Virus record (IMG/VR): IMGVR_UViG_3300032156_000018
Span: 1-49,438 of that record
Direction: 5' to 3' (one strand)
From: a virus
Length of the DNA stretch: 49,438 bases
The notes under the pieces were generated by a model. It worked only from the letters and a program-made list of their open reading frames with translations. It was not told the DNA's origin and made no database searches. Numbering within the stretch: position 1 is the stretch's first letter; each line of letters begins with the position of its first letter. A program made the translations under genes and the position numbers. This document shows, one piece after another, positions 1-33,124 of this stretch.

Positions 1-1
1 C

Positions 2-181
2 GATCCTGGATTATATCGGCTGATCATGGCCCGCGACTACGTGAACGGCAGGCAGACGCCGGAAGAGCGCCGGGCGAAGTATGCCCGCGTCTTTAAAGTC
101 ACCCGGAAGTCGGCCCTGGCCCGGCGCTGCCGGGACTGGACAGAAGGCCATATTAACCTCCTTCTGGACGCGCTGCGCTAA
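2..181 (+). CDS. partial hypothetical protein (C-terminal end)
   Basis: An open frame enters from the left edge and stops at TAA 179-181, overlapping the stop of the convergent polymerase gene by a few bases. If the protein is not longer, the first Met codon is at 26 and gives 51 residues. The visible part is basic and helical (TPEERRAKYARVF, then WTEGHINLLLDALR). No family is recognised. Because the frame is open at base 2, the window does not start at a genome end, so any terminal inverted repeat of this virus is not visible. Confidence 0.4.
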   Translation, partial: DPGLYRLIMARDYVNGRQTPEERRAKYARVFKVTRKSALARRCRDWTEGHINLLLDALR

Positions 182-2127
182 ATAAGCCCCTGGCGCAGCG
201 CCAGCTCAGCCTGGTAGTGGCCGACCTGGGCGATATGCTCCTGAAGCCAGTCCCCGGCCTGCGGCCAGCTCAGGATCTGCGAGCTGAGGACGTCCCAGGC
301 AGACCTGAAGCTGCGTTCCCATACTCGCTTTCTGTCCGAGTTCATGGATAGCTGGCGCTGTCGGGCTGCGATCACGTTGAACGCGGCCCAGGCTTCAGGA
401 TCGGCCGATCGTGCGGTCTGCTTCAGTTTCTTCGTCCTGGTCGTTTCCACGCTCATAATCGGCTCTTTGATACCCGGGCCGAATAGGGACTGAAGCGCGA
501 GCAGATTCCGAAGCGGGAGCGCTTTCTGGAAGCCGCGGGCTTTCGCCCTCTGTCCGGCTATCTGATACACTCCCGAGCCGATCACGGACGCGGTCGCGTT
601 GCTGAACTCGCGCTTCCACTCGCCCAGGCCGTCGCCGATCCTCAGCCCCCGGATCGGCGAGTCGGCCAGTATGCCGTCAGTCGCGAACATGATCGCCCGG
701 TCTGGATCGGCTTTCACCGCGTCGTAGAGCTGGCAGCGCGTCCCGGCCGTGATCTCCGAGGCCCAAATAGGATTAAACAGCGTCCCGGCCTTCACGTTGC
801 CCCGGACGACGAAGCGCAGCTCCATGTTTTCCTCGATAAAGTCCACGACCTTATACATCTCTTCCGGCGGGACATGGTCGAGGATTTGCGGCGATTCCGG
901 GATCATCTGGATCGTCTTCCCGTAGAGGCCGTTCAGTATGATCTTCGTCACGTCAGCCATAGCCGGGTTCGATTTCGCCCACTCCTGGCGTTTTTTGTAG
1001 AGCTTCTTGATCCACGGGAAGGCCAGGTCGTAGTCCTTCGGGTGATATGTCCAGCCTTTCACCACTTCCGGCCTCAGCCCGTCCTCCCTGAGCTGAGCCA
1101 GCTCTGACTGGTTCACGTATATATTCGAGAACCGCCCCGTCGGGTAGATCATAAGGCCGTCTTTGAGCTGGACGCGCAGGGGCGAGATCCGGCACTTCGG
1201 GACTTCCGCCTCGATCTTATAGAACCCGTAATGGGCCTCAGGATCGAACGCCCTGACCGCGTCCCACTTCCCTGCGTCGCACGCGATCAGCCCGGCCTCG
1301 ATCGCCGGGTATGCGCTGTTCAGGTCGTAGCCCGTGACGCTATCTTCGAACGTCCCGACCTTAAAGGTTTCGAACCGCCCGCCCTGGTATGCTTTCAGCG
1401 CGAAGTCCAGGACGGCGATCGACGGGAGCGACATGGCCCGCGTCAGGTTCTCCAGCGTGAACTGCTGCGCGAAGCTCGCGCTGGAGGAGAACGCCCTCGG
1501 GCGCATGATCTCCATAGTGTCCTTATACCGCTTTGCGGCGAGCCTCTGGCAGAGGACGGCGTCCCAGATCGCGTAGCGGTCGAGATCCGCCCGGTAGTGG
1601 GGATCGGAATCGTATCGCGTCGCCGAGAGCGTGGCCTTATTATAGGGCAGGGCCAGCTTCCGCTCCTGGAGGTATTTCTGAGCCGCGTCGTCGAGGCCGA
1701 TCGTGCCGTAGAACTGAGCCATGTCGTAGAACGTGACTGTGTGCTTCCCGCGCTTCAGCTTCAGCGCCTTCCGGGGTATATATTGGATCTTCGTCCGCTC
1801 GAACTCGGCTCGGTCTGCGATCGCGAGCCGCTTCAGGACTTCGTGCGGGAGGTGTTTCAGGAGCGCGAAGGTGTCATACTCCAGATTCCAGAAGAAGTTA
1901 TAGCTGCGTTCCATGAATCGGTTATGGAGAAGGTCGATCACGCCGGGCCAGTCCCGGACGCGCTCGGCTGCCGTCCCGCCGCCAGGCCCGGCGATCGTGA
2001 TCAGGAACGCCCGGCCCTGTTCGGTTTCGGTGTCCAGGCCGACCACGGGCCGGACTCGCCAGTTCCGCCGCCTCGGCTTGATCGTCGATCGGAATTCGAC
2101 CTTTGAAATCTCCTTCTCCCTGACCAT
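178..2127 (-). CDS. polB: family B DNA polymerase, protein-primed type
   Basis: Replicative DNA polymerase with 3'-5' proofreading, 649 aa. Exonuclease motifs are visible: ExoI D32-T-E34, ExoII NLEYD at 81-85 and ExoIII YAIWD at 185-189. They are followed by the linker YQGG at 247-250, polymerase motif A DLNSAYP at 268-274, motif B KIILNGLYG at 395-403 and motif C ATDG around 482-485, where the usual DTD is reduced to TD. The compact size, the YxGG linker and the spacing between motifs A and B (room for TPR1/TPR2 insertions) fit protein-primed enzymes of the phi29/His1 type. This implies a linear genome with terminal proteins. The start at 2127 is preceded by a strong purine-rich ribosome site. 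It is probably in one leftward operon with the basic 260-aa protein upstream. Confidence 0.93.
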   Translation of the reverse strand: MVREKEISKVEFRSTIKPRRRNWRVRPVVGLDTETEQGRAFLITIAGPGGGTAAERVRDWPGVIDLLHNRFMERSYNFFWNLEYDTFALLKHLPHEVLKRLAIADRAEFERTKIQYIPRKALKLKRGKHTVTFYDMAQFYGTIGLDDAAQKYLQERKLALPYNKATLSATRYDSDPHYRADLDRYAIWDAVLCQRLAAKRYKDTMEIMRPRAFSSSASFAQQFTLENLTRAMSLPSIAVLDFALKAYQGGRFETFKVGTFEDSVTGYDLNSAYPAIEAGLIACDAGKWDAVRAFDPEAHYGFYKIEAEVPKCRISPLRVQLKDGLMIYPTGRFSNIYVNQSELAQLREDGLRPEVVKGWTYHPKDYDLAFPWIKKLYKKRQEWAKSNPAMADVTKIILNGLYGKTIQMIPESPQILDHVPPEEMYKVVDFIEENMELRFVVRGNVKAGTLFNPIWASEITAGTRCQLYDAVKADPDRAIMFATDGILADSPIRGLRIGDGLGEWKREFSNATASVIGSGVYQIAGQRAKARGFQKALPLRNLLALQSLFGPGIKEPIMSVETTRTKKLKQTARSADPEAWAAFNVIAARQRQLSMNSDRKRVWERSFRSAWDVLSSQILSWPQAGDWLQEHIAQVGHYQAELALRQGLI

Positions 2128-2155
2128 GCTTCTCCCCCTCTTGCCAGGCCCGCCT

Positions 2156-2193
2156 TAAAGTGCCTTTACGCGGATCTTGATAAAGTCACTTTA
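2156..2193. promoter_or_regulatory. paired TAAAGT/ACTTTA dyads upstream of the polymerase gene
   Basis: Two 13-bp dyads lie 25 bp apart: TAAAGTGCCTTTA at 2156-2168 and TAAAGTCACTTTA at 2181-2193. The second is palindromic about its central base and overlaps the stop codon of the upstream gene. The first is the exact reverse complement of 8001-8013, in the other intergenic operator-like site of this virus. This suggests a shared DNA-binding protein; the ribbon-helix-helix protein at 3664-3873 is one candidate. Confidence 0.5.
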
Positions 2194-2973
2194 ACGTGGC
2201 CCGGCGAACCTGTCGCCCCTGAACAGCGGCCTCCCCTTCAGCCGCGTCTTCCCCTTCTTGGACAGCTTGCGGAGCTGCTCGAAGCTTGACCTGAACGCTT
2301 TCGTCCGCGTGGACGTTTCGCGCTCGATCCAGTCCCCGGTGTCGGCCGTGAACAGGCCGATACGGCGGCGTGCGACCATTTCGCGGACAGAGCCGACGGG
2401 CCGCCCCCGGCCCGGGTGTGCCACGCCCGCGCCGTAGCTCAGGACATACGTATAACCGCCCCGGACGATCTCCCATTTAGCCCCGGCCTGGACGCCCCCG
2501 AAGCGGCGCTCGATCGCCTCGGCGATCGTGGCCGTGCCGTTCTCTCTCAGATAGTCGAGCATTTCTTCGCGCAGGGTTTCGACCGGGACATGGCCGGGCA
2601 TGACGCGGTTCGGAGGCCCGCGGACGTCCATTCGGTAGCCTTCGAAATTGATCACGAAAAAGGCATAGGAGAAATAGGTCTGGAAGGTCTTTTCGATCAC
2701 GCTGTCGATCAGGAGCTGGACGCGGACGCGCTGGCCCGGCCTCGGCTTCGGGAGTAATGGAGAGCGTTTAAGAGTCAGGACGACGTAGCGATCCCGGCGC
2801 GTGATCGGGATCGTGATCCCGCGCTTCTTCCCAGGCCAGGAGATCCTGGCATGAGTGGCTATATAGGCTTTGTCGCCGAACGCATGGCGAAGCGCGACGG
2901 CCCTGTTCCCTGTCCGGCCGTAGCGGCCGACAGGGAGAAGAGCCTGGCCGCCTTTAACGGCGAACCTGACCAT
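2191..2973 (-). CDS. basic hypothetical protein, candidate genome terminal protein
   Basis: A 260-aa, strongly basic protein (C-terminal third rich in Arg and Lys, ending RFAGPR) lies immediately upstream of the protein-primed polymerase on the same strand. The middle contains a possible small helical domain (around 130-175) and a Tyr/Gly-rich stretch. Terminal proteins of phi29-like systems have similar length (about 230-270 aa), are basic, are very divergent and are usually encoded next to the polymerase. That role is therefore inferred from position, size and charge only; no motif proves it. It could instead be a DNA-binding or virion protein. The gene is separated from the next leftward gene by 188 bases holding a hairpin and a tRNA-like segment. 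Confidence 0.6.
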   Translation of the reverse strand: MVRFAVKGGQALLPVGRYGRTGNRAVALRHAFGDKAYIATHARISWPGKKRGITIPITRRDRYVVLTLKRSPLLPKPRPGQRVRVQLLIDSVIEKTFQTYFSYAFFVINFEGYRMDVRGPPNRVMPGHVPVETLREEMLDYLRENGTATIAEAIERRFGGVQAGAKWEIVRGGYTYVLSYGAGVAHPGRGRPVGSVREMVARRRIGLFTADTGDWIERETSTRTKAFRSSFEQLRKLSKKGKTRLKGRPLFRGDRFAGPR

Positions 2974-2996
2974 GCGACACTCTCCCCCCTGCCATA

Positions 2997-3066
2997 CGCC
3001 CCGCTGCGGATTCGAACCGCGAGGGCCAGGCTGACGCTCGGAGAGTGAAAAGCCCGCCCACGGGGC
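2997..3066 (-). other. tRNA-like segment (T-arm and acceptor), possible att-site relic
   Basis: Read on the minus strand, this 70-base stretch starts GCCCCGT, which can pair over 7 bp with GCGGGGC near its other end. It contains a T-arm-like block GCGGTTCGAATCCGC in the right place before the acceptor strand. The 38 bases between do not form a convincing D arm or anticodon arm, so it is not called an intact tRNA gene. It may be a tRNA 3'-end fragment of the kind used as viral attachment sites, or simply a palindromic site (GCGGaTTCGAAcCGC). Confidence 0.3.
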
Positions 3067-3122
3067 AGCTCCCTATTTTAGAATGGAACAAAGATAAAAA
3101 CTTATTGGTCTGCCGCGATAGC

Positions 3123-3144
3123 TCCGGGCCTCTGGAGGCCCGGA
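3123..3144. terminator. 9-bp perfect hairpin after the leftward small-gene operon
   Basis: TCCGGGCCT at 3123-3131 pairs perfectly with AGGCCCGGA at 3136-3144 around a 4-base loop. It lies just beyond the stop of the 3162-3548 gene on the minus strand. In the transcript direction a T-rich stretch (opposite 3090-3105) follows about 20 bases later. A transcription terminator or RNA-processing hairpin is the likely role, inferred from position. Confidence 0.45.
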
Positions 3145-3161
3145 ACTGTTCGCGAGTGAAC

Positions 3162-3548
3162 TCACTCTGTCGTCTGCGCCCGGTAGCACTTTGTCGGGCC
3201 GCGCTCAGGCAGATCCACGATCTCGGCGGTGATCACGACGCGAAGCCCTGCCAGGACGGCGAGGTTTCGCTTCTTCGCGATCACGGCCAGGGCGTGCCTC
3301 AGCGTGCGCGGGACGACGATCTGGCCGACCAGGTCGCCCTTCTTCACGGCCATGAAATAGGCCGATCCTTGCGGAAGCTTCTCATGCTCGACCAGCTTCG
3401 GCTCGCCCGTGATCTCCACGGCGAGCTGTTCCTTCAGCTCTGGCAGGTCGAAGGTCTGCTTCCCTTCGAACTCAGCGGCGCGGTTCAGGCCGTCGGCGTC
3501 GAAATCTTCCGCCCATGCGGGTATAGTCGCTTTGCTTCTTTCTCCCAT
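3162..3548 (-). CDS. hypothetical protein
   Basis: A 128-aa protein when started at ATG 3548, which has GGAGG about 11 bases upstream; a longer in-frame extension to 3641 lacks such a site. The N-terminus is polar and acidic (WAEDFDADG), the middle has alternating beta-like strands (QTFDLPELKEQLAVEI), and the C-terminus has hydrophobic strands around VVPRTLRHALAVIAKKR. No family was recognised. Its place in the leftward operon with a ribbon-helix-helix protein and the packaging ATPase suggests an early or replication-linked protein, possibly DNA-binding, but this is inference. Confidence 0.6.
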   Translation of the reverse strand: MGERSKATIPAWAEDFDADGLNRAAEFEGKQTFDLPELKEQLAVEITGEPKLVEHEKLPQGSAYFMAVKKGDLVGQIVVPRTLRHALAVIAKKRNLAVLAGLRVVITAEIVDLPERGPTKCYRAQTTE

Positions 3549-3663
3549 GTTGCTCAGTCCTCCATGTTCTTTTTTAATCACTCGAAGAAAACGCAGGGTG
3601 TCCTGAACAGTAATAGATCCCCTGACTCTCCGAGCTGTCACCCGGGAGAAGGCAGGGCGCGGT

Positions 3664-3873
3664 TTAAGTAGTTTTCGCTTTCGCTGCGAGCTTCAGCGCC
3701 CGGTCTGCCGCGTCCTCGGCCTCGATCCCTGTCCAGGCGATCCTGTTCAGGGTATCGCTAAAACTCTCATGGCTCTGCTGGCGTTTCCGCAGCTCATGGA
3801 TCAGGGCTTCGTCCATGTTCACGCTCTTCTGAGCGCGGGCGAAGACCTCATTTGTGCGGCCGAAGCGCGGCAT
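3664..3873 (-). CDS. ribbon-helix-helix (CopG/Arc-like) regulator
   Basis: A 69-aa protein whose core (residues about 17-50) has the pattern of a short strand SVNMDEAL, a helix IHELRKRQQ, and then HESFSDTLNRIA. The SFSD-x-x-x-R segment is typical of CopG/VapB-type ribbon-helix-helix DNA-binding proteins. Such dimers bind short palindromes, so this is a candidate binder of the TAAAGT dyads at 2156-2193 and 7972-8016 (inference). The gene starts 5 bases after the stop of the upstream 81-aa gene, with GAGGGG as ribosome site, so translation is probably coupled. Confidence 0.65.
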   Translation of the reverse strand: MPRFGRTNEVFARAQKSVNMDEALIHELRKRQQSHESFSDTLNRIAWTGIEAEDAADRALKLAAKAKTT

Positions 3874-3877
3874 GATC

Positions 3878-4123
3878 TCAGCCCCTCACGGCCGCGTCGA
3901 TCCTCGCCAGGGCTTCGTCCGGGACGTAGCCCTCGGCCATGCGTCGCTTCACTCTGCGGGCCAGGTTCATATAGACCAGCTCGGCAGGCCCGGCCAGGTT
4001 CGCCTTCCGCTGCGTCTGGACTAAAAACGCGTTCGCCAGGATCAGGAGATCGTCCAGCTCCAGGCTTTGCGTGAGCTTCAGCACGTTCTCGATCGTTGTC
4101 ACCGCTTCGTCAGATATTGCCAT
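3878..4123 (-). CDS. small helical hypothetical protein
   Basis: An 81-aa all-helical protein (ENVLKLTQSLELDDLLILANAF, then a basic helix ARRVKRRMAEGY and an acidic end). It sits between the packaging ATPase and the ribbon-helix-helix gene in a tightly packed leftward operon. No family was recognised. Helix pattern and size would fit a small DNA- or protein-binding adaptor, but there is no direct evidence. Confidence 0.55.
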   Translation of the reverse strand: MAISDEAVTTIENVLKLTQSLELDDLLILANAFLVQTQRKANLAGPAELVYMNLARRVKRRMAEGYVPDEALARIDAAVRG

Positions 4124-4135
4124 GTCGTCACCTTT

Positions 4136-4795
4136 TTAGCCATAGTGCTTAAACTTCCGCTCCCCGGCCCGGACTCGGCGCAGCTCCCCGGTCTGCGGAC
4201 AGAAATAGATCGCCACGAACTGAGGCAGGGCCGGGAGCTGGTCGATCGGTATCCCGCAGCGCTTCAGGTAGTCGAGCGCGTTCGGTTCGTGGATATTGAA
4301 CAGGATAAAATCGTCAGCCTGGGCGATCAGCGTCTTCGACACTTCGGCAGGCTTCAGGCTGGCAGCGAGAATGTCGATCTTATGCTTCCGGCCCTGGTCG
4401 ATCAGCCGCCGGAAGCCCGGCTTCACCTGTCCGAACTGAGGCGCGAGTTCCTGGACTTCCTCGACCATGACGACGCGGCCGCCCACGTCCAGGATCGCGA
4501 ACATGAGCCGATCGACCTCTTCGGTGAAAACGTCGAACGCGATCATGTCGGGATAGACGACCAGGCCGTGCCAGCGCTCCAGGAGCGCGTGCCAGTTGAT
4601 CCGGCCTATCATGTCGGCCTGGATCGGGAGCAGCCACGCGTTCGGGTGAGCCTTCGCAAAACTGAAATGTTCCTGGCCGTAGTCTATGATCACGAACGGC
4701 TTACTGACGCGCTGCTCCATGTCCGCGCCCATGAGGTAGCTCTTCCCCTGGCCCTTCCGGCCCAGGGTGACGCGGATCTGGCTTCTGAGCGCCAT
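4136..4795 (-). CDS. FtsK/HerA-type (A32-like) genome packaging ATPase
   Basis: A 219-aa P-loop ATPase that should pump viral DNA into preformed, probably membrane-containing capsids. Walker A is GRKGQGKS at 12-19. Walker B is RVVMVEE at 107-113 with the paired acidic residues. A conserved QGRKHKIDILAASLKP block at 135-149 matches the arginine-finger/sensor region. Length and motif spacing fit the compact A32-like ATPases of internal-membrane viruses (PRD1 P9, STIV B204, SH1 ATPase) rather than cellular FtsK or HerA. It lies between a helical protein and a membrane-associated protein in the leftward arm. It is one of the two hallmark genes that define region A as a tail-less virus. Confidence 0.88.
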   Translation of the reverse strand: MALRSQIRVTLGRKGQGKSYLMGADMEQRVSKPFVIIDYGQEHFSFAKAHPNAWLLPIQADMIGRINWHALLERWHGLVVYPDMIAFDVFTEEVDRLMFAILDVGGRVVMVEEVQELAPQFGQVKPGFRRLIDQGRKHKIDILAASLKPAEVSKTLIAQADDFILFNIHEPNALDYLKRCGIPIDQLPALPQFVAIYFCPQTGELRRVRAGERKFKHYG

Positions 4796-4799
4796 GAGA

Positions 4800-5372
4800 T
4801 CACCCGGCGAGTTCCTTCGGCTCTGAAGGCTTCGTATGCTCTCTGTGATATGCTGAGTCCTGCCCTGCGGGTTTTGCTCCTGGCTTCTGCTCTCCTGGCT
4901 TCGCTGCTGGCTTCTGCTCTTCAGCGTTCGGCGCTTCCCCGATCTTCGAGATCACGACAGCGCCGACTCCGATCGAGGCCATGACGAACGGCGGCCAGGG
5001 GCTGCTGGTATCGAGCTGCGGCAGGTAGAAGTCGATCAAATCGACGACAGTCGCGCCCCACTCGATCGCGGCCATGTCTTCGTAAGTCATGCGGAAGCCT
5101 GGGCGTGACTTCCCGACCAGGGCGGTGATCAGGACGCAGCCGAGTTTATCGACGCGTTCGGCGAATTTCTTTTTCAGCTCGGGCGTCATAGGCTTAAACC
5201 CATGCCCGGCTGGCTGGTCGCCCCCTGGAGGCAGCGCTCCGGGCAGCTCTTCCGGCGGATAGTCCAGAAGATCCTCGCCAGACTCAGGCGCTGGCTTCAG
5301 GACTGGCGCACGTTTCAGGTCAGGATCTGCCGGATTCCTGACGCGATCCTTCAGCCGCACGTCGTCCGGCAT
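4800..5372 (-). CDS. hypothetical protein with hydrophobic segments
   Basis: A 190-aa protein started at ATG 5372, which has GGAGAGG a few bases upstream and overlaps the end of the preceding gene by 3 bases. A longer frame upstream is the low-complexity shadow of that gene. The N-terminal third is Pro-rich (LLDYPPEELPGALPPGG). A helix-rich middle contains LGCVLITALVG, followed by a hydrophobic segment WPPFVMASIGVGAVVISKIG (about 140-160) and a charged Lys/Pro tail. The overall shape suggests a membrane-associated virion protein. Position next to the packaging ATPase is consistent with a vertex or membrane role; no family is recognised. Confidence 0.6.
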   Translation of the reverse strand: MPDDVRLKDRVRNPADPDLKRAPVLKPAPESGEDLLDYPPEELPGALPPGGDQPAGHGFKPMTPELKKKFAERVDKLGCVLITALVGKSRPGFRMTYEDMAAIEWGATVVDLIDFYLPQLDTSSPWPPFVMASIGVGAVVISKIGEAPNAEEQKPAAKPGEQKPGAKPAGQDSAYHREHTKPSEPKELAG

Positions 5373-5374
5373 GG

Positions 5375-5626
5375 TCAGCCTCTCCGAACCTGGGGATCTC
5401 TGCGCTGCGCCTGCGCTCCGGCCTTCGCCTGCGCTGCTGCCTGTTTCGCCCGCTGCTGCTCCTGGACGTGGTTCACGTAGTTCTGGATCTCGCCCTGGAT
5501 CACGTTCAGGACAGACTGGACGACCGCCGCGCCCTTCAGGTTCAGGGCCACGCGGGGCGTCTTCTCGCTGTCCTGTTTCACTTCGACGCGGACGCTGTTC
5601 TCTTCCATGCTCAGTTTTAGCTCCAT
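5375..5626 (-). CDS. small hypothetical protein
   Basis: An 83-aa protein. ATG 5626 is preferred over the GTG three codons upstream because AAGGAG lies about 10 bases before the ATG. The N-terminus alternates beta-like (ELKLSMEENSVRVEVKQ). The second half is a Gln/Ala-rich amphipathic helix with coiled-coil potential (VQEQQRAKQAAAQAKAGAQ). It overlaps the following gene by three bases of reading frame, so the two are probably co-translated. Function unknown. Confidence 0.55.
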   Translation of the reverse strand: MELKLSMEENSVRVEVKQDSEKTPRVALNLKGAAVVQSVLNVIQGEIQNYVNHVQEQQRAKQAAAQAKAGAQAQRRDPQVRRG

Positions 5627-5644
5627 AGTCTTCACGCTCCTTAA

Positions 5645-6292
5645 TCACGGCCTCCCTGTCCACGGATCGACGGGCAGATCAGGATCTTCTGTTTTCGAGG
5701 ATACGGCCCGGGCCTGGACTTCGACCACGTCGGCCCTGCGCCGTTTCGAGATCAGGGCGTGGGCGGCGTATGCCAGGCCAGCGGCGAGGATCGCCCCGGC
5801 CAGCAGCCAGACCGCGATCCGGCGTTTCGGCGCTGGCCTGGTCTGGTCTTCGTCCCCGTCTATATTATAGGCGTCGCCAGGTTCGGCGATCTCCAGCTCA
5901 GGGTTCGGCCTGGTTCGCTCGCGCTCTCTCAGGTTCAGGTCGAGGTCGCGGGTGAAATCCTGAAGCTCGGCTTTTTCGTCAGGGATCGCCGGGCTGTCAG
6001 AGGCCGGAGCGGGCGGAAGGGCTGAGGGAGAAGCCAGATCTTCCGCCGCTTCGGGCCTGTCTGGAGGAATAGCCGGGGCGGCGGCAGGCTCAGGTTCGGC
6101 CGTAGCCTGCGCGTCCGCCTCGGGTTCTGCGTAGTTTTCCTTTTCCTTTGCGAGTTTATCGGCTTTCTGCCTGCGTCGGCACGTCTTGGAATCGGTATGC
6201 ATGGCGAAGCTGCCTTCATTCCCGCACGGCAGCCCGCACTTCGGGCATAAGATTTTAACGCGTTTTTCGTCGGATACTTGCGCCTTTCCCAT
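5645..6292 (-). CDS. zinc-finger and single-membrane-span protein
   Basis: A 215-aa protein, first gene of the leftward arm. The N-terminus carries a C2HC-like zinc finger (CPKCGLPCGNEG, then H and C around residues 32-38) followed by a Lys-rich helix. A long Pro/Ala/Glu low-complexity linker occupies about 55-105. A membrane helix IAVWLLAGAILAAGLAYAAH lies near residues 158-180, with a short basic RRR flank. The layout, a nucleic-acid or protein-binding head tethered to a membrane by a flexible linker, would suit a protein that anchors the genome or packaging complex to the virion membrane. That role is inference. Confidence 0.6.
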   Translation of the reverse strand: MGKAQVSDEKRVKILCPKCGLPCGNEGSFAMHTDSKTCRRRQKADKLAKEKENYAEPEADAQATAEPEPAAAPAIPPDRPEAAEDLASPSALPPAPASDSPAIPDEKAELQDFTRDLDLNLRERERTRPNPELEIAEPGDAYNIDGDEDQTRPAPKRRIAVWLLAGAILAAGLAYAAHALISKRRRADVVEVQARAVSSKTEDPDLPVDPWTGRP

Positions 6293-6318
6293 GTTTTCGG
6301 CCTCCCCGGGGGGTATAT

Positions 6319-6340
6319 CTATAAACCTATTTATAAACTT
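6319..6340. promoter_or_regulatory. bidirectional archaeal promoter between the two arms
   Basis: The divergent gap 6293-6387 contains the self-complementary box TTTATAAA at 6330-6337 and a second box CTATAAAC at 6319-6326. Read leftward, the box is preceded by an A-rich BRE-like stretch (GAAAAGTTTATAAATAGG), a good archaeal promoter for the gene starting at 6292. Read rightward it would serve 6388, whose ribosome site GGGGGGTGA lies just upstream of its ATG. Both arms of region A are therefore probably driven from here. Confidence 0.65.
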
Positions 6341-6387
6341 TTCTCCCCCTTAATAGGTCACCCTAAAAAGGGGGGTGAAATAACGAC

Positions 6388-6717
6388 ATGGCAGACCTCA
6401 AAGAGTTGATGAGCGGCGACGCTCTGACTCTCTACGCTGGCGCTGTCCTCGGATTCTACGGCCCGCGAATCGTCCACACCTGGGGAATCGCGAAGATCGT
6501 GGAAGCGGTCTTCAAGCCGAAAGAGGGCGAAGCCAGAAAGGGACTCAGCGATCCCGCGAACTGGACAGAGATCACCGACATAGCCTTCGGCGTCGCGACT
6601 CTTGCAGTAGTCAAGAACGTGACTCTGAAGCGTGGTATGCTCGCAGGCGTCGGCCTGAGCCTCTTCGACCACGTCCTCGCTCGCTTCCCTGACGTGAAAG
6701 CGAAGCTGCCCGGGTGA
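6388..6717 (+). CDS. small membrane-associated virion protein candidate
   Basis: A 109-aa protein and the first gene of the rightward arm, with a strong GGGGGGTGA site before its ATG. Three weakly hydrophobic helices can be seen (TLYAGAVLGFYGPRIV, TDIAFGVATLAVVK and MLAGVGLSLF). In sphaerolipovirus-type genomes a small membrane protein directly precedes the two capsid genes; the same position here makes a virion-membrane role plausible. The stop codon lies 3 bases before the next ATG, in the overlapping ribosome site GGTGATC. Confidence 0.6.
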   Translation: MADLKELMSGDALTLYAGAVLGFYGPRIVHTWGIAKIVEAVFKPKEGEARKGLSDPANWTEITDIAFGVATLAVVKNVTLKRGMLAGVGLSLFDHVLARFPDVKAKLPG

Positions 6718-6722
6718 TCAAC

Positions 6723-7148
6723 ATGGCAATATATGAGATCACGAAAGGCAGCGAAGGCGTGACTCTGACACCGAACACCGCGGGCCAGAGTTCCCCTATC
6801 GTTTCTATCCAGGTTCAGCCGACGAAGAGCTATACAGTCATGCCGAACGCGCTCTTCCAGCTTTTCCTGAAGGACAACGCCCCGGCGAACCTCCCGGACG
6901 ACTCGACCTTCGAAATGTGGGTTGAGGACGTCAGCGGCGACCTCCCTATAAGGCTCAGGTCGTGGGACATGGGAAGGTTCAACAACGCGAACCAGTTCAA
7001 CAGCGACTCGCAGATCAGGCTGGACATAGACAAGCACTACAAGCTCGCCGAGCTGCGGAAGATCATCTTCAAGCTGACCTCGACCGCTGTCGTGGACTGG
7101 ACGCAGGCAGGGACGAAGTTCATGCTCCAGGTCGATCGCCTGGGCTGA
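6723..7148 (+). CDS. small major capsid protein candidate (single jelly-roll)
   Basis: A 141-aa, beta-rich protein without a signal or membrane segment, started at ATG 6723, with GGTGATC six bases upstream. Alternating strands such as SSPIVSIQVQP, FEMWVEDVSG and KIIFKLTSTAVVDW, with few long helices, fit a compact beta-barrel. It is followed after 130 bases by a second, larger beta-rich protein. Adjacent small and large capsid genes next to an A32-like ATPase recall the VP7/VP4 pair of SH1-like viruses. This is an analogy of layout and predicted fold; sequence homology could not be tested. Confidence 0.5.
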   Translation: MAIYEITKGSEGVTLTPNTAGQSSPIVSIQVQPTKSYTVMPNALFQLFLKDNAPANLPDDSTFEMWVEDVSGDLPIRLRSWDMGRFNNANQFNSDSQIRLDIDKHYKLAELRKIIFKLTSTAVVDWTQAGTKFMLQVDRLG

Positions 7149-7278
7149 ACAGAAGACGTTTTTGTTTTTTTCGATCACACCGCGAACCCGGCTTATACCC
7201 GGGCCGCGGTTTCAACCCGACGCACGCGTTCAGCGTTCTCCCGAAGGCTGGAGAGCGTGGTCGTGGGGGGTGAAAGGA

Positions 7279-7944
7279 ATGGCACGGCAGACATTTTTAA
7301 CCCTCGCTTCGGCGAGCGTGACAACGCAGGCGAACGTTCCCGGGATCATGTCCGAGATCGTGGATATTTCTGTTCCGCGCACTCTGGCTTATAGATTCCA
7401 GTATGGGACGCCGATCAAGATGTATCTCATGACGAAGCAGCTCGCGAACGGGAACGGCGCTCCGGCCCAGGACATAGTCCTCAGCAATTACCTCAGACAG
7501 TCGCCTTCCATGAGCGCACAGTCGAACGTCGCGGTCGAGGTCGCAGGCGTCAGGGTATGGAACTATACAGTCGATTTCGCCACTCCGAAGATCACCAGCA
7601 CGGGCGCAGGGTTCGCTTCAGGCACGAACAACGTCGCGATCTTCTACCTGTTCGGCACTTCTGGCGGGGATACTGTCAGGATCAGGGCTGCGGACGCGAA
7701 CAAAGAGCATTTTAACCCGCTCATGAACCGCGACCTGGAGAACTGGGGCGTCAGCGATCAGAATAACGCGAAGGAGCGCCAGGAGCTGAGGAATGACCTC
7801 ACTCTCCCGGAGAAGACTCACTTCCTGATCGAACTCCAGTCCTCGGCTACTGTCGATTTCACCTATTCGCTCCTGGAGATCGCTGTCCAGGAATCGCCAG
7901 TCGCAGGGACAGATCCGGCGACCTTTGTCAAGTTCACCGCATAA
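7279..7944 (+). CDS. large major capsid protein candidate (jelly-roll)
   Basis: A 221-aa beta-rich protein. ATG 7279 is chosen because GGGGGGTGA lies just upstream and the preceding in-frame codons look like untranslated leader. Polar strands dominate (VEVAGVRVWNYTVDF, NNVAIFYLFG, THFLIELQSSATVDFTYSLLEI), with one helical segment around NAKERQELRNDLTLPEK. Size is near the large vertical single-beta-barrel capsid protein of SH1-like viruses (about 230 aa) and below most double jelly-roll proteins (over 260 aa). A separate 130-base leader before it suggests its own strong expression. A capsid role is inferred from fold pattern, position and the neighbouring ATPase arm. Confidence 0.55.
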   Translation: MARQTFLTLASASVTTQANVPGIMSEIVDISVPRTLAYRFQYGTPIKMYLMTKQLANGNGAPAQDIVLSNYLRQSPSMSAQSNVAVEVAGVRVWNYTVDFATPKITSTGAGFASGTNNVAIFYLFGTSGGDTVRIRAADANKEHFNPLMNRDLENWGVSDQNNAKERQELRNDLTLPEKTHFLIELQSSATVDFTYSLLEIAVQESPVAGTDPATFVKFTA

Positions 7945-7971
7945 GCGCAGCCAGGCGGAACTGAAAGAGCT

Positions 7972-8016
7972 GGCTAAAGGATACTTTAGCGAGATCTCGC
8001 TAAAGGCACTTTAGCC
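7972..8016. promoter_or_regulatory. four-half-site CTAAAG palindrome cluster
   Basis: The gap after the larger capsid gene has four alternating half-sites: GCTAAAG at 7973-7979, CTTTAGC at 7984-7990, GCTAAAG at 7999-8005 and CTTTAGC at 8009-8015. The inner pair forms a perfect 22-bp palindrome at 7984-8005 with AGATCT at its centre. The outer right pair gives TAAAGGCACTTTA (8001-8013), the exact reverse complement of 2156-2168. It may be an operator, a recombination site or, in RNA, an attenuating hairpin. Confidence 0.55.
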
Positions 8017-8062
8017 CGGCCCGCAGCTCCTGGCAGACAAAAAGGGACAGGTGAACGACAAC

Positions 8063-8623
8063 ATGGCCGACGAAGTGGTGACAGAGTTCAGCATTTGGTC
8101 GCCGTTCAGGATCGACTGGGCGGCAGCCGGAAACAGGATACTCGCGATCCTGTCGAAGCTCGCTATCCTCACAGTCCCGGCGATCGGCTGGAATCCGATC
8201 AGGGGCGTCCTGACGCCGAAGACAGCGAACAGCGGCACGCTCGCTATAACCTGGCAGGCTGCCGGATCTCCGGCGCTCATGGCCGCGCTGATCCCGCTTC
8301 TGCCTGCGATCTTCTCGATCCTGAAGACGCTCATTATTGGGATCCTGGTCGTCACGGGCATTAAGGCGTTCACGAAGGCGGGCGAAGTCACCGCTGGCGC
8401 GAGCGAAACGAAGGCGAGCGTGATCCAGTCGATCGCGACAGACGACTCCCTGACTGAGCAGACGAAACAGGCCGCGCTCGCTGCCGTGGCAGGGCTGGAA
8501 ACTAAGCCCTCGACTCTGGCAGACGTCCAGGGGATAATCAAGACCGCGGTCGCGGCCGGGGTGATCATAGTCGGGCTGCTCCTGATCCTGGAGATCGCTC
8601 GCGGCATGAGGCGGAGGGGCTGA
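8063..8623 (+). CDS. integral membrane protein, virion membrane candidate
   Basis: A 186-aa protein; ATG 8063 is chosen because GGTGA is 8-10 bases upstream. Two strong membrane segments are visible: a long one at about 73-105 (ALIPLLPAIFSILKTLIIGI) and a C-terminal one at about 160-180 (AGVIIVGLLLILEIARG) followed by a basic RRR end. Between them is a polar Ala/Thr/Lys-rich helical loop. Position right after the capsid pair suggests an internal-membrane virion protein. Function beyond that is unknown. Confidence 0.65.
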   Translation: MADEVVTEFSIWSPFRIDWAAAGNRILAILSKLAILTVPAIGWNPIRGVLTPKTANSGTLAITWQAAGSPALMAALIPLLPAIFSILKTLIIGILVVTGIKAFTKAGEVTAGASETKASVIQSIATDDSLTEQTKQAALAAVAGLETKPSTLADVQGIIKTAVAAGVIIVGLLLILEIARGMRRRG

Positions 8624-8625
8624 AC

Positions 8626-10182
8626 ATGGCAGAGAAGGCGAAAGTCACGATCACCCTGAAAGGGAAGAAGTATCACGTCGAGGTCGAGCGCGATCCTGAC
8701 GGCGGGCGTCATTACGATATAACAGACATGAAAGGCGACTATCTCGAAGACGACGAGATCGAGGACGAGCTGATCGGGATCGTGGACGAGATGAGCCTGA
8801 AATTCAGAAAGAACCCGGGCCGGGAAGTCACGAAGGGCTACGTCCGGGAACGCCTCCAGGATCCTGAAAGGTTCGATCCTGAGAGCTTCCGCACGAAGAA
8901 GATCAGCGAGAAGACGAAGCTGGTCGTGGCCTGCCCGAAAGGGAAGTTTAAACGCGGGCGCTGCCAGGACGGCATGGAAGCCCAGGCGAAGCTGACGAAG
9001 CGCGGGAATCCAGGGATCACCAGCGCACGTGCCGCAAAGCTCGGAGCTGCCGCGTTCAGGGAAGAGCATAACGCAGGCGCTCACTTCGAGAGCGCTGACG
9101 CTGCCCTGAAGCACGCGAACCACGTCCTCGAAGACGCGAAGTATAAAGCTCTCCATAGCGGGCAGCGCCTCGATTTCTCTTATGGTTTCGTCGATGAATG
9201 GAAGCGCTACCACGCGCTCGGGAAGAATCCCGGGAAGGCGGGGAAGAAGGGCCGCGACAACACACTCCTATACCTGGGCGCTGGCCTGGTCATGGCTGGC
9301 GGGATCGCGCTCGCGCTTATGCCGAAAGCAGCGGCAAAGCCGGAAGACTCTGATTCAGGGATACAGCCCGGGCCTGACTTCCCCGAGCCAGGGCCAGAAC
9401 CTGATCCATACAACCCTGGGCCAGGGTATGAGCCTGAGCCGAAGCCTGAGCCACAGCCAGAGCCGAAGCCTCAGCCTGATCCTGGAGTCGATCCAGTCAT
9501 AAAGCCCGAGTATCCGAACCTAAAGATCGCGTTCTCGAAGCCTGGCCTGAGCGCTCTTAAACAGGGCGTGATCCAGAGCTTCCAGATCCAGCTCACGAAC
9601 CAGGGCGAACAGCTCCAGGTTTACGCGATCGACCTGGTAGTGTCCAGCGGCCGCGCTGTCATGGACAGGACGCGGATCGCCACGGGTTCGATCGGGGCGC
9701 ACTCGCTGAAGGTGGCGAGCGCAGAGTATCCGACGGCCTCGCTGGTCGTGGGCGCTTACTATGACGTGCGCGTGGAAGCCTGGTCAGCGAACAGCCTGAT
9801 CGCGACCGCGCTCGGGACTACCTTCCAGGTTCTCGGCGCTGGCGCTGTCACCATGACGCTGGTCAGAGTCGGCTACACCGCGGGCGTCGTGCCTGAAGTC
9901 AAGCGTGCGGCTCTGCTCCAGTTCCAGCCTCGGATCATGTCGAACGTATCGCGCAGCGTGAAAGTCGAGAGCGTCATGGTCGAACGCCTGGGGCGGCCGA
10001 CTGACGAACGCGACCACGGCAATAAATACGTCTATTCCACGTATCCCTGGTCTGAGTTCCTGAGCCAGACAGTCCCGAGCTGGTTCAGCGACGGGACTCA
10101 CACCATAATAATCAGGGCGACCGATCCGCTCAGCGGCGAGCTGCTGGCCGAGTCTGTCGGGACGTTTAAGGTGGTGGGGTGA
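8626..10182 (+). CDS. membrane-anchored stalk/vertex spike protein
   Basis: A 518-aa protein with clear modular layout. The N-terminal 220 residues are charged and basic, with a possible internal zinc or DNA-contact region around CPKGKFKRGRC. One membrane helix follows (TLLYLGAGLVMAGGIALAL). Next is a Pro/Glu/Lys repeat stalk made of PEPKPEPQPEP-like units (about 245-290), then two beta-sandwich-like domains to the C-terminus. Such a layout, inside-membrane-stalk-outside, fits a vertex or spike protein that crosses the virion membrane and projects outward. The gene begins 2 bases after the upstream stop. No specific family was recognised. Confidence 0.6.
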   Translation: MAEKAKVTITLKGKKYHVEVERDPDGGRHYDITDMKGDYLEDDEIEDELIGIVDEMSLKFRKNPGREVTKGYVRERLQDPERFDPESFRTKKISEKTKLVVACPKGKFKRGRCQDGMEAQAKLTKRGNPGITSARAAKLGAAAFREEHNAGAHFESADAALKHANHVLEDAKYKALHSGQRLDFSYGFVDEWKRYHALGKNPGKAGKKGRDNTLLYLGAGLVMAGGIALALMPKAAAKPEDSDSGIQPGPDFPEPGPEPDPYNPGPGYEPEPKPEPQPEPKPQPDPGVDPVIKPEYPNLKIAFSKPGLSALKQGVIQSFQIQLTNQGEQLQVYAIDLVVSSGRAVMDRTRIATGSIGAHSLKVASAEYPTASLVVGAYYDVRVEAWSANSLIATALGTTFQVLGAGAVTMTLVRVGYTAGVVPEVKRAALLQFQPRIMSNVSRSVKVESVMVERLGRPTDERDHGNKYVYSTYPWSEFLSQTVPSWFSDGTHTIIIRATDPLSGELLAESVGTFKVVG

Positions 10183-10186
10183 CTGA

Positions 10187-10315
10187 ATGGCAGCCATGAC
10201 GAAGAAAGCAACGATCACCGAGATCTCCAGCGCTGAGATCAGAGAGAAGATCACGAAGCGGCCGGGCTGGAAGCCCGAGCTGGAGCTGATCCTGAAACTG
10301 AGAGGGGAGCTATGA
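10187..10315 (+). CDS. 42-aa small protein
   Basis: A short polar, helical protein (ATITEISSAEIREKITKR, then PELELILKLRGEL) whose ATG follows a GGGGTGACTGA stop/ribosome-site cassette shared with other junctions. It overlaps the next ATG through ATGA. The codon pattern (ATC, CTG, AAG) matches its neighbours, which supports translation. No function is assigned. Confidence 0.45.
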   Translation: MAAMTKKATITEISSAEIREKITKRPGWKPELELILKLRGEL

Positions 10316-10491
10316 AGATCATGGCAGTTAAATGTCGGAAACGCTGCTGGCTGATCCTGGGAGTCGCGGCAGCCCTGGGAGTGATATACCTCGCGTCAAA
10401 GGCGGCGGCAACGCCGACGGGCGCGGTGACGGGCTACGGCCCGGCCGTGGCCGGGGCTGGCCGGACTGTCGAAGAGATCAGCGGAAGGTGA
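10312..10491 (+). CDS. 59-aa single-span membrane protein
   Basis: Starts in an ATGA overlap with the 42-aa gene and ends in the AGGTGATT ribosome site of the next gene, which argues for real coupled translation. The N-terminus has a basic Cys-containing start followed by a membrane helix (WLILGVAAALGVIYLASK), then an Ala/Gly/Thr-rich tail. A minor virion membrane protein is plausible. Confidence 0.5.
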   Translation: MKIMAVKCRKRCWLILGVAAALGVIYLASKAAATPTGAVTGYGPAVAGAGRTVEEISGR

Positions 10492-10499
10492 TTAAGGAC

Positions 10500-10871
10500 A
10501 TGGCTAAATTCAGCACAACGGACAGCGCGATTCGTGACCTGGCAGAGCGCCAGAGCGTCCAGCAGCCTAAAGAGGGCGACATAGACAGCCTCCAGATGTT
10601 CCAGGAGAGCGTCCCGGGCGGCTCGCGGCTGACGCTGGAGTTCCCGGTCGGCCAGAACTGGCGTATCCACGTCCAGGAGATCGCGGTCGATTTCGCCCTG
10701 AACACTAACTACATATTCCTATTCAACGGCCAGCGGTGGGAGGGCGACAACCTCGCCGCGTTCTCCATGCCGCAGACCGAAGAGGAAAAGGTCACGATCG
10801 TGATCGAGAACTTCAACGCGGCCGCGGTCGTCTATTCCGGCCATATAAAGGCATGGGCCACGCCCAGGTGA
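10500..10871 (+). CDS. beta-rich small virion protein candidate
   Basis: A 123-aa protein; ATG 10500 has AAGGTGATTAAGG upstream. After a polar N-terminal helix (residues 1-30) it shows regular beta strands (SRLTLEFPVGQNWRIHV, EIAVDFALNTNYIFLFNG, KVTIVIENFNAAAVVYSGHI). Strand spacing resembles small jelly-roll virion proteins. It may be a penton, spike-base or minor capsid protein. Gene order (after the stalk protein, before the fibre) supports a vertex role, by inference. Confidence 0.5.
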   Translation: MAKFSTTDSAIRDLAERQSVQQPKEGDIDSLQMFQESVPGGSRLTLEFPVGQNWRIHVQEIAVDFALNTNYIFLFNGQRWEGDNLAAFSMPQTEEEKVTIVIENFNAAAVVYSGHIKAWATPR

Positions 10872-10878
10872 TACGAAC

Positions 10879-11241
10879 ATGAAAGGCTTTACTGACGTCA
10901 GAAAAGTGATCGAGCCGATCAACGCTCAGGTCGATGAGTCCCAGGCTGTCGCGGACGCGCCCGCCGTGATCAACGCGAACGACGCAGGGCCGCAGGCCGT
11001 GACTTATGGCGTCCTGAAGAACGGCTATATAATCCAGAACGCCGGGCCGAAGAGCGCGAAGATCAGGATCAACGGTGACGCCGGACTCGGCGACGGCGAG
11101 TATAACTTCGAGATGTCGGCGCACTCTGTCGTGGCGAAGACAGGGATCGCGCTCGCGAAGATCTCGGCGATCTGCGACGCTGGCCTGACCGCGAAGCTGA
11201 TCATCACCAGCGAAGAGAAGACGATCTATCCCGTGGAGTGA
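10879..11241 (+). CDS. beta-rich hypothetical protein before the fibre
   Basis: A 120-aa protein, 7 bases after its neighbour, with GGTGA just before the start. The middle and C-terminus are alternating strands (VTYGVLKNGYIIQNAG, AKIRINGDAGLGDGEYNFEM, AKLIITSEEKTIYPVE), a pattern compatible with an Ig-like or jelly-roll fold. The stop codon is embedded in the GAGTGATC ribosome site of the fibre gene, so the two are probably co-translated. A spike-base or fibre-adaptor role is possible. Confidence 0.5.
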   Translation: MKGFTDVRKVIEPINAQVDESQAVADAPAVINANDAGPQAVTYGVLKNGYIIQNAGPKSAKIRINGDAGLGDGEYNFEMSAHSVVAKTGIALAKISAICDAGLTAKLIITSEEKTIYPVE

Positions 11242-11246
11242 TCACG

Positions 11247-12935
11247 ATGTTCTTCTATGCCGAGTATAACAGAGTCGATCGCGCCGGGGACAGAATGGAG
11301 GGCGACCTCGACTTCGACATTCACGCTGCGAAGTTCGGGGAACATTCTATCTATCGCAAAGAGTCTTATCAGCTCGGGTTTATCGTCGGCGGGGATACTG
11401 TCGCGCATTTCGGCAATACCAGCACACGGGGGAACAGCTACCTCGCTATGGACGAAGGACTCGGCGATCCTGAGCTGATCTTCGATCAGCAGGGCATAGT
11501 GGACAACGACGCGCTTCTCAGATATAACCGGGCAGCAAAGGAGTTCGAGCTGGTCGCGATCAAAGACGACACAACCACGACTTCGATCGCGAAGATCTCG
11601 GACGGCCTGATCGACATGAGCGGAGGAACTGACGATCTCAGGATACACCCTCCGGCCGATAAAAATGCGAAATTTAATCTGACTGGAGCAGACAACAGGT
11701 TATGGGTGACTGTTGAGCATACTGGCCCTGGAATCATGTTCGAGGGAAGCGATGGCGGAACCGGAACAAGATTCGGAGCGCTCACTTATTATTCAGATGG
11801 TGATACCTTTGAGATCCGTGGAAGCGACGGCTCAAAACCTTTCCTCGGAAGCGAGAATGGCCGACTCGCCCTCTACAAAGACAACGCTCAATTTTTCATG
11901 GTTGAGGACGGCCTGATCGACATGAGCGGCGGGACCGCCGACACCACGCTCAAGATAAAGGGTGGGCAGGCGTTCAAAGTGAACAACGGGACGAATGACC
12001 TAATGAGATTGAATGAGTGGGGATTGTATTTGAGTGATTTGCCTTCTCCGTATCTTGTTTGGGAAGAAGGTGGAAACGAAATCTCATACGGAGTTAATAA
12101 GACTGACCGCCGCCACGAGTGGTATATAGATGGCGGCGAGCCAAAGATGGTGATGAGTAATGAAGGTATTGACTTCCACGGCTGTTCGGGAGTCACCACT
12201 ATTCAATTCAAAAACGGATTCACTCTGAATCTCTATGATGGAGCCACCCATTTCCTTAAATTTAGTGACGGCTTATTTGACACGAGCGAAGCGACAGCCG
12301 ACACTACGCTAAAGATAAAGGGCGGACAGGCGTTCAAACTGAACGACGGCACAGACGATCTGTTCGCCGTGAGTGCAGGAGAAGTGAATATCGCCCCTTC
12401 CGGACAGTATGGAAGATTGACATTCTTTGACAGCGCGAGCGGCCAGGCACACCTCAATTTCTACGAGCCGAACCCTGGCGAGTATGGGTTCGCATTTATG
12501 AGGCCGGACGGGGTGGGCGGTGAAGTCTTTTTCCACCAAATCCTGAAAGCAGAAGGATTCAATACTCTTGTGAGCGACTTTTTTGTCGATGTTGCAGCCG
12601 AGCAAGACTTCGCCATCCGTGTAGAGGACAATACACTCGCCACTCCGACGCACGCGAAACTGACCTATGAGTTCGCCGGAAAAGCCTGGAGCCGCGAAGT
12701 GGACGACGGCGCAGGCGGGCGCACTATGGTTGAGAGAGTCAGCGACGGCGTTCTCGACCTCTCGGGGATGACAATTCCATCAGTCATAAGATTCAAGCAC
12801 TACGCACAGGCAGCGCAGCCAGCGCTCGCCAACAACGGCGAGATGGCCGTATGGGAGGACACGGACGACAGCAACCGGACATACCTGATAGTCAGGACGA
12901 ACGGCGTGGACAGGAAGGTGGAGTTGAGTGCATGA
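11247..12935 (+). CDS. modular receptor-binding fibre/spike (chimeric junction gene)
   Basis: A 562-aa fibre from ATG 11247. The N-terminus has the tail-fibre element RAGDRMEGDLDF. Repeated modules follow, each with a DGLxDMSGG-like turn and a TLKIKGGQAFKLNDGT-like strand (near 11,940 and 12,300). The C-terminus (NNGEMAVWEDTDD to VRTNGVDRKVELSA) resembles the end of the 47791-48201 protein. Codons switch from GATC-rich region A style to AT-richer style near 11,640. Bases 11638-11912 are about 96% identical to 48581-48855, and 12390-12516 match 49312-49438 exactly. The gene as read may therefore join the spike of one virus to the 3' end of a tail fibre of another. Upstream parts most likely belong to the tail-less virus; ownership after 12390 is ambiguous. 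Confidence 0.7.
   Translation: MFFYAEYNRVDRAGDRMEGDLDFDIHAAKFGEHSIYRKESYQLGFIVGGDTVAHFGNTSTRGNSYLAMDEGLGDPELIFDQQGIVDNDALLRYNRAAKEFELVAIKDDTTTTSIAKISDGLIDMSGGTDDLRIHPPADKNAKFNLTGADNRLWVTVEHTGPGIMFEGSDGGTGTRFGALTYYSDGDTFEIRGSDGSKPFLGSENGRLALYKDNAQFFMVEDGLIDMSGGTADTTLKIKGGQAFKVNNGTNDLMRLNEWGLYLSDLPSPYLVWEEGGNEISYGVNKTDRRHEWYIDGGEPKMVMSNEGIDFHGCSGVTTIQFKNGFTLNLYDGATHFLKFSDGLFDTSEATADTTLKIKGGQAFKLNDGTDDLFAVSAGEVNIAPSGQYGRLTFFDSASGQAHLNFYEPNPGEYGFAFMRPDGVGGEVFFHQILKAEGFNTLVSDFFVDVAAEQDFAIRVEDNTLATPTHAKLTYEFAGKAWSREVDDGAGGRTMVERVSDGVLDLSGMTIPSVIRFKHYAQAAQPALANNGEMAVWEDTDDSNRTYLIVRTNGVDRKVELSA
11638..11912 (+). repeat. shared adhesin module, diverged copy (pairs with 48581-48855)
   Basis: A 275-bp gap-free match to 48581-48855 at constant offset 36,943, with about 11 mismatches counted by eye, mostly at third codon positions. 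Both copies are in frame in fibre genes and encode the segment from DKNAKF to MVEDG. It is AT-richer than surrounding sequence of either virus, suggesting a module acquired by both. Confidence 0.9.
12390..12516 (+). repeat. 127-bp exact direct repeat of the window's right end
   Basis: Identical base for base to 49312-49438; the base before it differs (T at 12389, C at 49311) and the window ends at its right edge. A further 84 bp upstream (from 12306) is similar but diverged. An exact overlap of 127 at a contig end is the signature expected from a graph assembly with k of 127. It marks where the circular tailed-virus sequence closes on itself. Confidence 0.9.
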
Positions 12936-24492: not shown

Positions 24493-24648
24493 ATGGGATA
24501 CACAACAAAGGGAAGATTATTTCAGATACAGGTGCATCCTGAAACGGAGAAGATGACGGCACAGATAGAAGTAGAACTGGACGAGTGGGCGTTCACGGAT
24601 ATGAGGGAGAAAGTAGGAGAAGAGGTCAAAGTCATAATAGGTGACTGA
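24493..24648 (+). CDS. 51-aa small protein, first of an AT-richer island
   Basis: Begins after the GGGGGTGACTGA cassette. A beta-rich small protein (GRLFQIQVHPETEKMTAQIE, then VGEEVKVIIGD). Codons (AGA, ATA, GGA, GAA) differ sharply from the surrounding GC-rich genes, which suggests recent transfer. It ends GGTGACTGA, again serving as the next ribosome site. Confidence 0.5.
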   Translation: MGYTTKGRLFQIQVHPETEKMTAQIEVELDEWAFTDMREKVGEEVKVIIGD

Positions 24649-24649
24649 G

Positions 24650-24805
24650 ATGGGCGACCTAATAGGTGCTGATAAGAGGCAATACTGGTGCAGCCTCTGC
24701 GGGAGATTCAACTGCAAACTTAGAGAGGTCGAGGATGGGAAGATATGCGAAAACTGCATCAGAAAAGTAAAGCAATTCAGAATCAAGCAGCGAGGGGGTG
24801 ACTGA
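24650..24805 (+). CDS. 51-aa zinc-ribbon mini-protein
   Basis: Two CxxC-type knuckles (CSLCGRFNC and CENC) separated by about 13 residues, with a basic C-terminus (RKVKQFRIKQRGGD), indicate a small zinc-binding, probably nucleic-acid-binding protein. AT-richer than flanks. It is coupled to both neighbours by the TGACTGA cassette. Confidence 0.55.
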   Translation: MGDLIGADKRQYWCSLCGRFNCKLREVEDGKICENCIRKVKQFRIKQRGGD

Positions 24806-24808
24806 GCG

Positions 24809-25531
24809 ATGAAGTATATACTCTCCTACGGCGGTGGTGTGAATAGTTCAGCCCTCTTTTTTTATCTCTTAAATGTTGGCGCACCACTGGACGCAGTGGT
24901 CTTTGCGGACACGCAAGAGGAAACAGAAAGAACCTATGATGCCGTAAGACGCATGGAGGAGATATGCAAACAAAGGGGAATCATGTTTGCGACAGTCAGC
25001 GCAGGGAGCTTATACGACTACTATGAAAAGAAAAGGTGTGTTATGAGCGTTCAGAAAAGGGACTGTACAACTAAGTTCAAGGTAGCCCCAATCAGGAAGT
25101 TCTTGAGACAGAAATACGGAAAGAAGGAGACTTTTACAATGAACATAGGAATCACCTATGACGAAGCCACCAGAATGAAAGACAGCAACGTGAAATACAT
25201 CACAAACAGCTATCCTTTCTGCGACGCAAGAATCTCAAGGCGTGGGAATCTCGACATCCTCAGAGAAGAAGGATTCACAGCGGTAAAGAGTGGGTGCAAA
25301 GGGTGCATCTATACTAAGAAAGTGGAGTGGTTAAAGATGGCAATCGAGAACCCCAAAGAGTTCAAAAGGCATCTTCACCTCGACATGAACAATAGGGGCT
25401 ACCCAAAGGTCACACTTAGTCCAAACTACCCACTTGAAGATATTGCAAGAGCGGCGAAAGGGCAACAATCTTTAAGTTCCTATGCTAACGTTGAACCATC
25501 ATGTGATGCAGCCGGATGGTGTTTCCTATGA
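24809..25531 (+). CDS. PP-loop ATP pyrophosphatase (PAPS reductase/DndC-like family)
   Basis: 240 aa. The N-terminal SYGGGVNSS (6-14) is the PP-loop that binds ATP for adenylation chemistry. VVFADTQEETERTYD follows as the second strand motif. Cysteines recur at DCTTKFK, SGCKGCIYTKK and the C-terminal CDAAGWCFL, compatible with a metal or iron-sulfur site. Viral members are often annotated PAPS reductase but may act in sulfur transfer, tRNA thiolation or DNA modification of the Dnd type. No cysteine desulfurase partner is present here, so the real substrate is unknown. AT-richer than flanks, an apparent acquired gene. Confidence 0.72.
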   Translation: MKYILSYGGGVNSSALFFYLLNVGAPLDAVVFADTQEETERTYDAVRRMEEICKQRGIMFATVSAGSLYDYYEKKRCVMSVQKRDCTTKFKVAPIRKFLRQKYGKKETFTMNIGITYDEATRMKDSNVKYITNSYPFCDARISRRGNLDILREEGFTAVKSGCKGCIYTKKVEWLKMAIENPKEFKRHLHLDMNNRGYPKVTLSPNYPLEDIARAAKGQQSLSSYANVEPSCDAAGWCFL

Positions 25532-25593
25532 GGCAGACAGACGAAGCGGCCCCGCGCCGCGCAGCAACCGACGAAAAGAAAGGGGGTGACTGA
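25528..25593 (+). CDS. possible 21-aa peptide
   Basis: ATG overlaps the stop of the PP-loop gene (ATGA) and the frame ends in the GGGGGTGACTGA cassette. It is polar (MRQTDEAAPRRAATDEK). It may be translated only to couple the genes on either side. Confidence 0.25.
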   Translation: MRQTDEAAPRRAATDEKKGGD

Positions 25594-25594
25594 G

Positions 25595-25756: not shown

Positions 25757-25761
25757 CTGAG

Positions 25762-33075: not shown

Positions 33076-33124
33076 AACAATCACGCATCACACCAAGCAA
33101 CACAGCAACAGGGGTGTGACGCGA

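Follow-up and report, generated by a model that had tools for sequence, protein, structure and literature searches.

The window analyzed here is the whole of IMG/VR record IMGVR_UViG_3300032156_000018, 49,438 bases classed as linear, and it holds two copies of a gene for a putative modular adhesin, both on the plus strand. One copy begins at position 11,238, and the other, at 48,238–49,438, runs up to the end of the contig. Two modules are shared between them. Module A is found at 11,613–11,912 and again at 48,556–48,855 with 94% ungapped identity over 300 nucleotides, rising to 96.2% in its core (11,652–11,912 and 48,595–48,855); a BLAST search of 11,613–11,912 against the record returned a match at 48,565–48,855 (95% identity, E = 2e-131). 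Module B occupies 12,291–12,516 and 49,213–49,438 (95% identity), its second copy stopping at the contig end. A preliminary description had placed the near-identical module at 11,638–11,912 and 48,581–48,855, which is correct to within about 25 bases; the further similarity that it noted at 12,306–12,389 is indeed part of a second pair, the extent of which it underestimated. It was also right that the module is richer in AT than either genome: module A has a GC content of 0.51–0.53 and a GC3 of 0.50–0.55, below the values of most genes in both parts of the record (GC 0.57–0.64, GC3 mostly 0.70–0.85), and the modules as a group are lower in both measures.

The outer part of each adhesin consists of dissimilar segments with a repeated linker in between, whose consensus is D-G-L-x-D-x-S ... 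T-L-K-I-x-x-x-Q-A-F-K-L-N-D-G-T-x-D-L. In the left copy, this linker (repeat family D2) lies on the plus strand at 11,907–12,002, where it reads DGLxDxS...TLKIKGGQAFKxNxGTxDL, and again at 12,267–12,362 with 78% identity to the first. The rises and drops in identity between the two copies, and with them the module edges, coincide with the linkers, and the left and right copies have unrelated sequence between modules A and B. A C-terminal segment at 12,517–12,935 (plus strand) is present once. No fibre or adhesin family of Pfam, PHROG or PDB rose above noise in either copy, and the protein is provisionally named an adhesin from its position, modularity and linkers. Single-query searches of IMG/VR with module A, and with module B plus the C-terminus, returned no relatives.

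To the left of the adhesins, positions 1–11,237 form the genome arm of a sphaerolipovirus-like, putatively tailless virus. A family B DNA polymerase gene of the protein-primed type is encoded on the minus strand at 178–2,127 (PF03175, 6e-18; phrog_11768, 3e-54), and among named relatives it is closest to His1, His2 and some Rhodococcus and Microbacterium phages, at about 25%. Also on the minus strand, at 4,136–4,795, lies a packaging ATPase of the Sphaerolipoviridae type (phrog_2666, 3e-22), related to those of SH1, PH1, HCIV-1 and HHIV-2, with a tblastn match to SH1 at 1e-10, coverage of 95–97% and a conserved Walker motif. The arm thereby pairs a protein-primed-type polymerase with a sphaerolipovirus-type ATPase. 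The plus strand carries a small protein located where VP12, a membrane protein, would be expected (6,388–6,717), a candidate small major capsid protein (MCP) of 144 amino acids (6,714–7,148) and a candidate large MCP of 260 amino acids (7,162–7,944), all three assigned from gene order. A small putative vertex structural protein (10,879–11,241, plus strand), with left-like composition (+0.11 per base), overlaps the adhesin start by 4 bases.

This arrangement resembles that of Alphasphaerolipovirus (SH1, PH1, HCIV-1 and HHIV-2; order Halopanivirales), in which the ATPase, 26–30% alike, and small genes lie on one strand and VP12, the small and large MCPs, membrane proteins and, last, the spikes are transcribed divergently. 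The strands and order of ATPase, VP12, small MCP, large MCP and spikes match those of PH1, HHIV-2 and HCIV-1, a correspondence of position only, and the left adhesin occupies the last, or spike, position. In sphaerolipovirus genomes, conservation is lowest in the vertex and spike genes, which are replaceable; HHIV-2, for instance, has distinct VP16/VP17 proteins (PMC5332951). Unlike Alphasphaerolipovirus, the left arm has the polymerase gene, a protein composition that is not halophilic and, where spikes would be encoded, a fibre-like modular adhesin; its MCPs show no detected homology. Members of Halopanivirales have two neighboring MCPs, each a single jelly roll, and the two candidates are suitably placed for such a pair. 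Neither candidate MCP had a profile match, and their predicted structures were too poor for fold searches to be meaningful. A scan of the left-arm proteins revealed no portal or tail family, the sole "terminase" match being the tailless-type ATPase family phrog_2666. The earlier proposal of a tailless left virus agrees with the ATPase, polymerase, gene order and lack of recognized tail genes, although its capsid proteins were not confirmed; judged from sequence features, the virus is likely tailless.

Relatives of this arm are scarce. The candidate large MCP, the polymerase and the ATPase found none as single IMG/VR queries, and these searches together with those of the modules yielded no further contig with the left arm or the modules. 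The candidate large MCP had no match in genome contigs, and a search for the candidate MCP in 34 genomes of one phylum among the labels of metagenome-assembled genomes (MAGs), run without a positive control, was likewise empty. Searches with the ATPase alignment matched haloarchaeal sphaerolipoviruses and one other record only, the structural genes of which are different. The polymerase alignment matched His1/His2, actinophages and other records that share no left-arm structural homologues except the ATPase.

The remainder of the record, 12,936–47,780 on the plus strand, is the genome of a tailed virus, recognized by its PHROG matches and by collinearity with a relative, and contains neck and tail genes, tape measure, methyltransferases, terminase, portal, protease, MCP and connectors. 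Its Caudoviricetes head module (TerL, portal, protease and MCP) is supported by phrog_38 (5e-24), phrog_2662 (1e-27) and phrog_80 (1e-18), and its tail genes include a tape measure (phrog_1272, 2e-11), a neck protein (phrog_5, 5e-8) and a head-tail adaptor (phrog_442, 9e-13). The MCP was identified from homologues and synteny and has 16 relatives in IMG/VR. The collinear relative, IMGVR_UViG_3300031952_000056 (hereafter G001), is a circular tailed virus of 38,117 bases with a 125-base end repeat; it aligns with 12,933–47,780, shares the genome plan at 75–85% nucleotide identity over most structural genes and has one adhesin between its connector and neck genes. That adhesin, 1,095 amino acids long and open across the closure of G001, has the same type of linker and differs in lacking modules A and B. 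Relatives of the tailed MCP also occur in five MAGs labeled Woesearchaeota, Nanoarchaeota, "archaeon" or WOR-3, four of them archaeal by label; bins may contain stray viral contigs, and these labels point to an archaeon as host of the tailed group without naming it.

Several other features of the tailed part deserve mention. Within 24,500–26,300, GC falls to 0.46–0.49 and nucleotide collinearity with G001 is absent; this segment, in which a PAPS-reductase-like gene sits (phrog_424, 24,809–25,531), is likely an insertion. At 30,880–34,824 a radical SAM gene accompanies two DNA methyltransferase genes, one with a fused ParB-like domain. Short tandem C-termini (GDWWYDT...YKG.DGT...ILG) at 47,563–47,637 and 47,704–47,778 are 76% identical, and the second, which does not end any called full-length gene, resembles a remnant or spare. 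The short fibre-like protein at 47,791–48,201 begins with an N-terminus like that of the G001 adhesin and finishes with a C-terminus like that of the adhesin in the present record, as though a single long fibre gene had become split.

Our findings indicate that the two parts belong to different viruses, as the preliminary description had supposed. The last 127 bases of the contig are an exact copy of 12,390–12,516, and 127 is the usual largest k in SPAdes; such an end is expected where a k=127 de Bruijn path runs from a side arm into a circle and forms a "lasso." When the circle is joined at the 127-mer, it measures 36,922 bases, in which 48,238–49,438 followed by 12,517–12,935 form one intact adhesin frame of 539 amino acids, located between connector and neck genes as in G001. 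Tetranucleotide composition separates the parts sharply, the correlation being 0.37 between 1–11,237 and the tailed part, compared with 0.86–0.92 within the tailed part and 0.81–0.91 between the tailed part and G001. The circular relative is collinear with the tailed part only, and nothing in 1–12,932 resembles it apart from a low-complexity match. The contig thus most likely arose when the assembler joined two viruses, which genuine sharing of adhesin modules made possible, since any de Bruijn join requires a common exact k-mer and the join itself presupposes sharing.

To assign each adhesin part to a genome, we used a third-order Markov model of coding sequence with a left-minus-right score, evaluated by leaving out in turn each of 12 left and 17 right genes; every gene was classified correctly (12/12 and 17/17), all those of the left arm apart from the tailed part. 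The left adhesin N-terminus (11,238–11,651, plus strand), a putative virion anchor, scored +33.4, at the 38th percentile of the left windows and thus close to their median; each of the 372 tailed windows scored lower (maximum −19.6). Conversely, the N-terminus of the copy at 48,238–49,438 scored −41.3, under every left window (minimum +10.2). On these scores, each adhesin copy opens with sequence of its own genome and continues into the shared modules. In the left adhesin, modules A and B and the segment between them scored near zero, fitting neither genome well, and 12,517–12,935 leaned toward the tailed part (−21.6); this segment, which continues the open frame of 48,238–49,438, belongs at least to the tailed virus. 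The possibility raised earlier that 11,247–12,389 also derives from a tailed virus was thus answered in part: 11,238–11,651 clearly belongs to the left virus, while 11,652–12,389 is compositionally neutral. The sharing of a module between a tailless and a tailed virus is supported indirectly.

The modules differ in their divergence. In core A, 9 of 10 differences fall at third codon positions (binomial P = 0.0004; dN = 0.005, dS = 0.17), bearing out the suggestion that most are synonymous. The first 99 bases of module B contain 11 differences (dS = 0.58) and the following 127 bases none; third-position differences are unequal between core A and the 5' part of B (P = 0.012) and between the latter and the identical tract (P = 0.0001). 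From this unequal divergence, the modules appear to differ in age, in agreement with multiple exchanges. Less weight attaches to the identical tract, given that the assembly join itself selects for identity.

We consider it probable that a tailless and a tailed virus, between whose lineages adhesin modules have moved, were joined by assembly into this record. Two viruses of one sample would be represented, namely a tailless sphaerolipovirus-like virus (1 to about 12,389, incomplete) and a tailed partner that is circular or circularly permuted (12,390–49,438, 36,922 bases), and an identical tract of at least 127 bases would have led the assembler from one into the other. Each virus would carry a single adhesin gene where its spike or fibre is usually encoded, with an N-terminus that anchors the protein to its own virion. 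Modules A and B would have moved by recombination helped by the conserved linkers, as cassettes exchanged during co-infection, each virus retaining its own anchor, and would have been maintained by purifying selection after transfer. Receptor binding by the adhesin, a common host and the direction of transfer are matters that we infer; the left arm yielded no evidence of a host. Within this explanation, the tailless genome may have a whole adhesin including 12,517–12,935, recently gained from the tailed virus and identical to the stop codon. This variant is possible, if somewhat doubtful: the identity of 12,390–12,516 after 99 bases with 11 differences favors it, as does the lack of any visible alternative branch, but the lasso would conceal such a branch, and the tailed-like score of 12,517–12,935 is expected either way.

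The strongest challenge to exchange between virus groups is that the left adhesin beyond about 11,652 comes from a second strain of the tailed virus, introduced by a previous misjoin or through a chimeric read. In its favor, a chimeric junction is already present at 12,390–12,516, the neutral score of 11,652–12,389 is not left-like, and the linker type occurs in the tailed relative as well. Against this, the left-like 11,238–11,651 lies in one open frame with the modules, the whole left copy being free of frame breaks, and a de Bruijn misjoin at or after 11,652 would need a shared exact 127-mer, which is itself sharing, unless a chimeric molecule had arisen during library preparation; we regard this account as unlikely. 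Still more improbable, by a wide measure, is a single real genome that encodes two adhesins, or a pair of neighboring proviruses, one tailless and one tailed. The presence of both parts in a single contig speaks for it, and we rejected it on the exact lasso, which closes at the right gene, on the circular relative, which lacks the left arm, and on the sharply different composition. Returning to the chimera with exchanged modules, a broader reading is tentative, with our confidence falling a little short of even: viruses of two realms infecting one archaeon, one kind tailless with an internal membrane and the other tailed, would share a pool of linker-bounded adhesin cassettes, exchanged recently and repeatedly, so that receptor choice evolves across groups and not inside single lineages.

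Exchange of tail-fibre modules among distantly related tailed phages is established, for instance in Alteromonas phages A5 and V22 (PMC10579305), where homologous host-recognition modules likewise occur within otherwise unrelated genomes. Those phages are all Caudoviricetes and share the fibre along with a chaperone, whereas in the present case one partner appears to be tailless and of another realm. A limited search of open papers found no report of a tailless virus exchanging such parts with a tailed one, a result that argues only weakly that none exists.

These findings have consequences for the use of such data. The public record mixes two viruses, so that a taxonomic label, host or completeness value given to it will combine the two; more generally, shared modules at least one k-mer long yield chimeric records that resemble new hybrid viruses. 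For the viruses themselves, our analysis suggests that unrelated viruses swap attachment parts. If this is true, viruses whose capsids are unrelated exchange the parts that recognize a host, which implies that they co-infect one host and use a common receptor, and shared adhesin cassettes could link uncultured tailless and tailed archaeal viruses.
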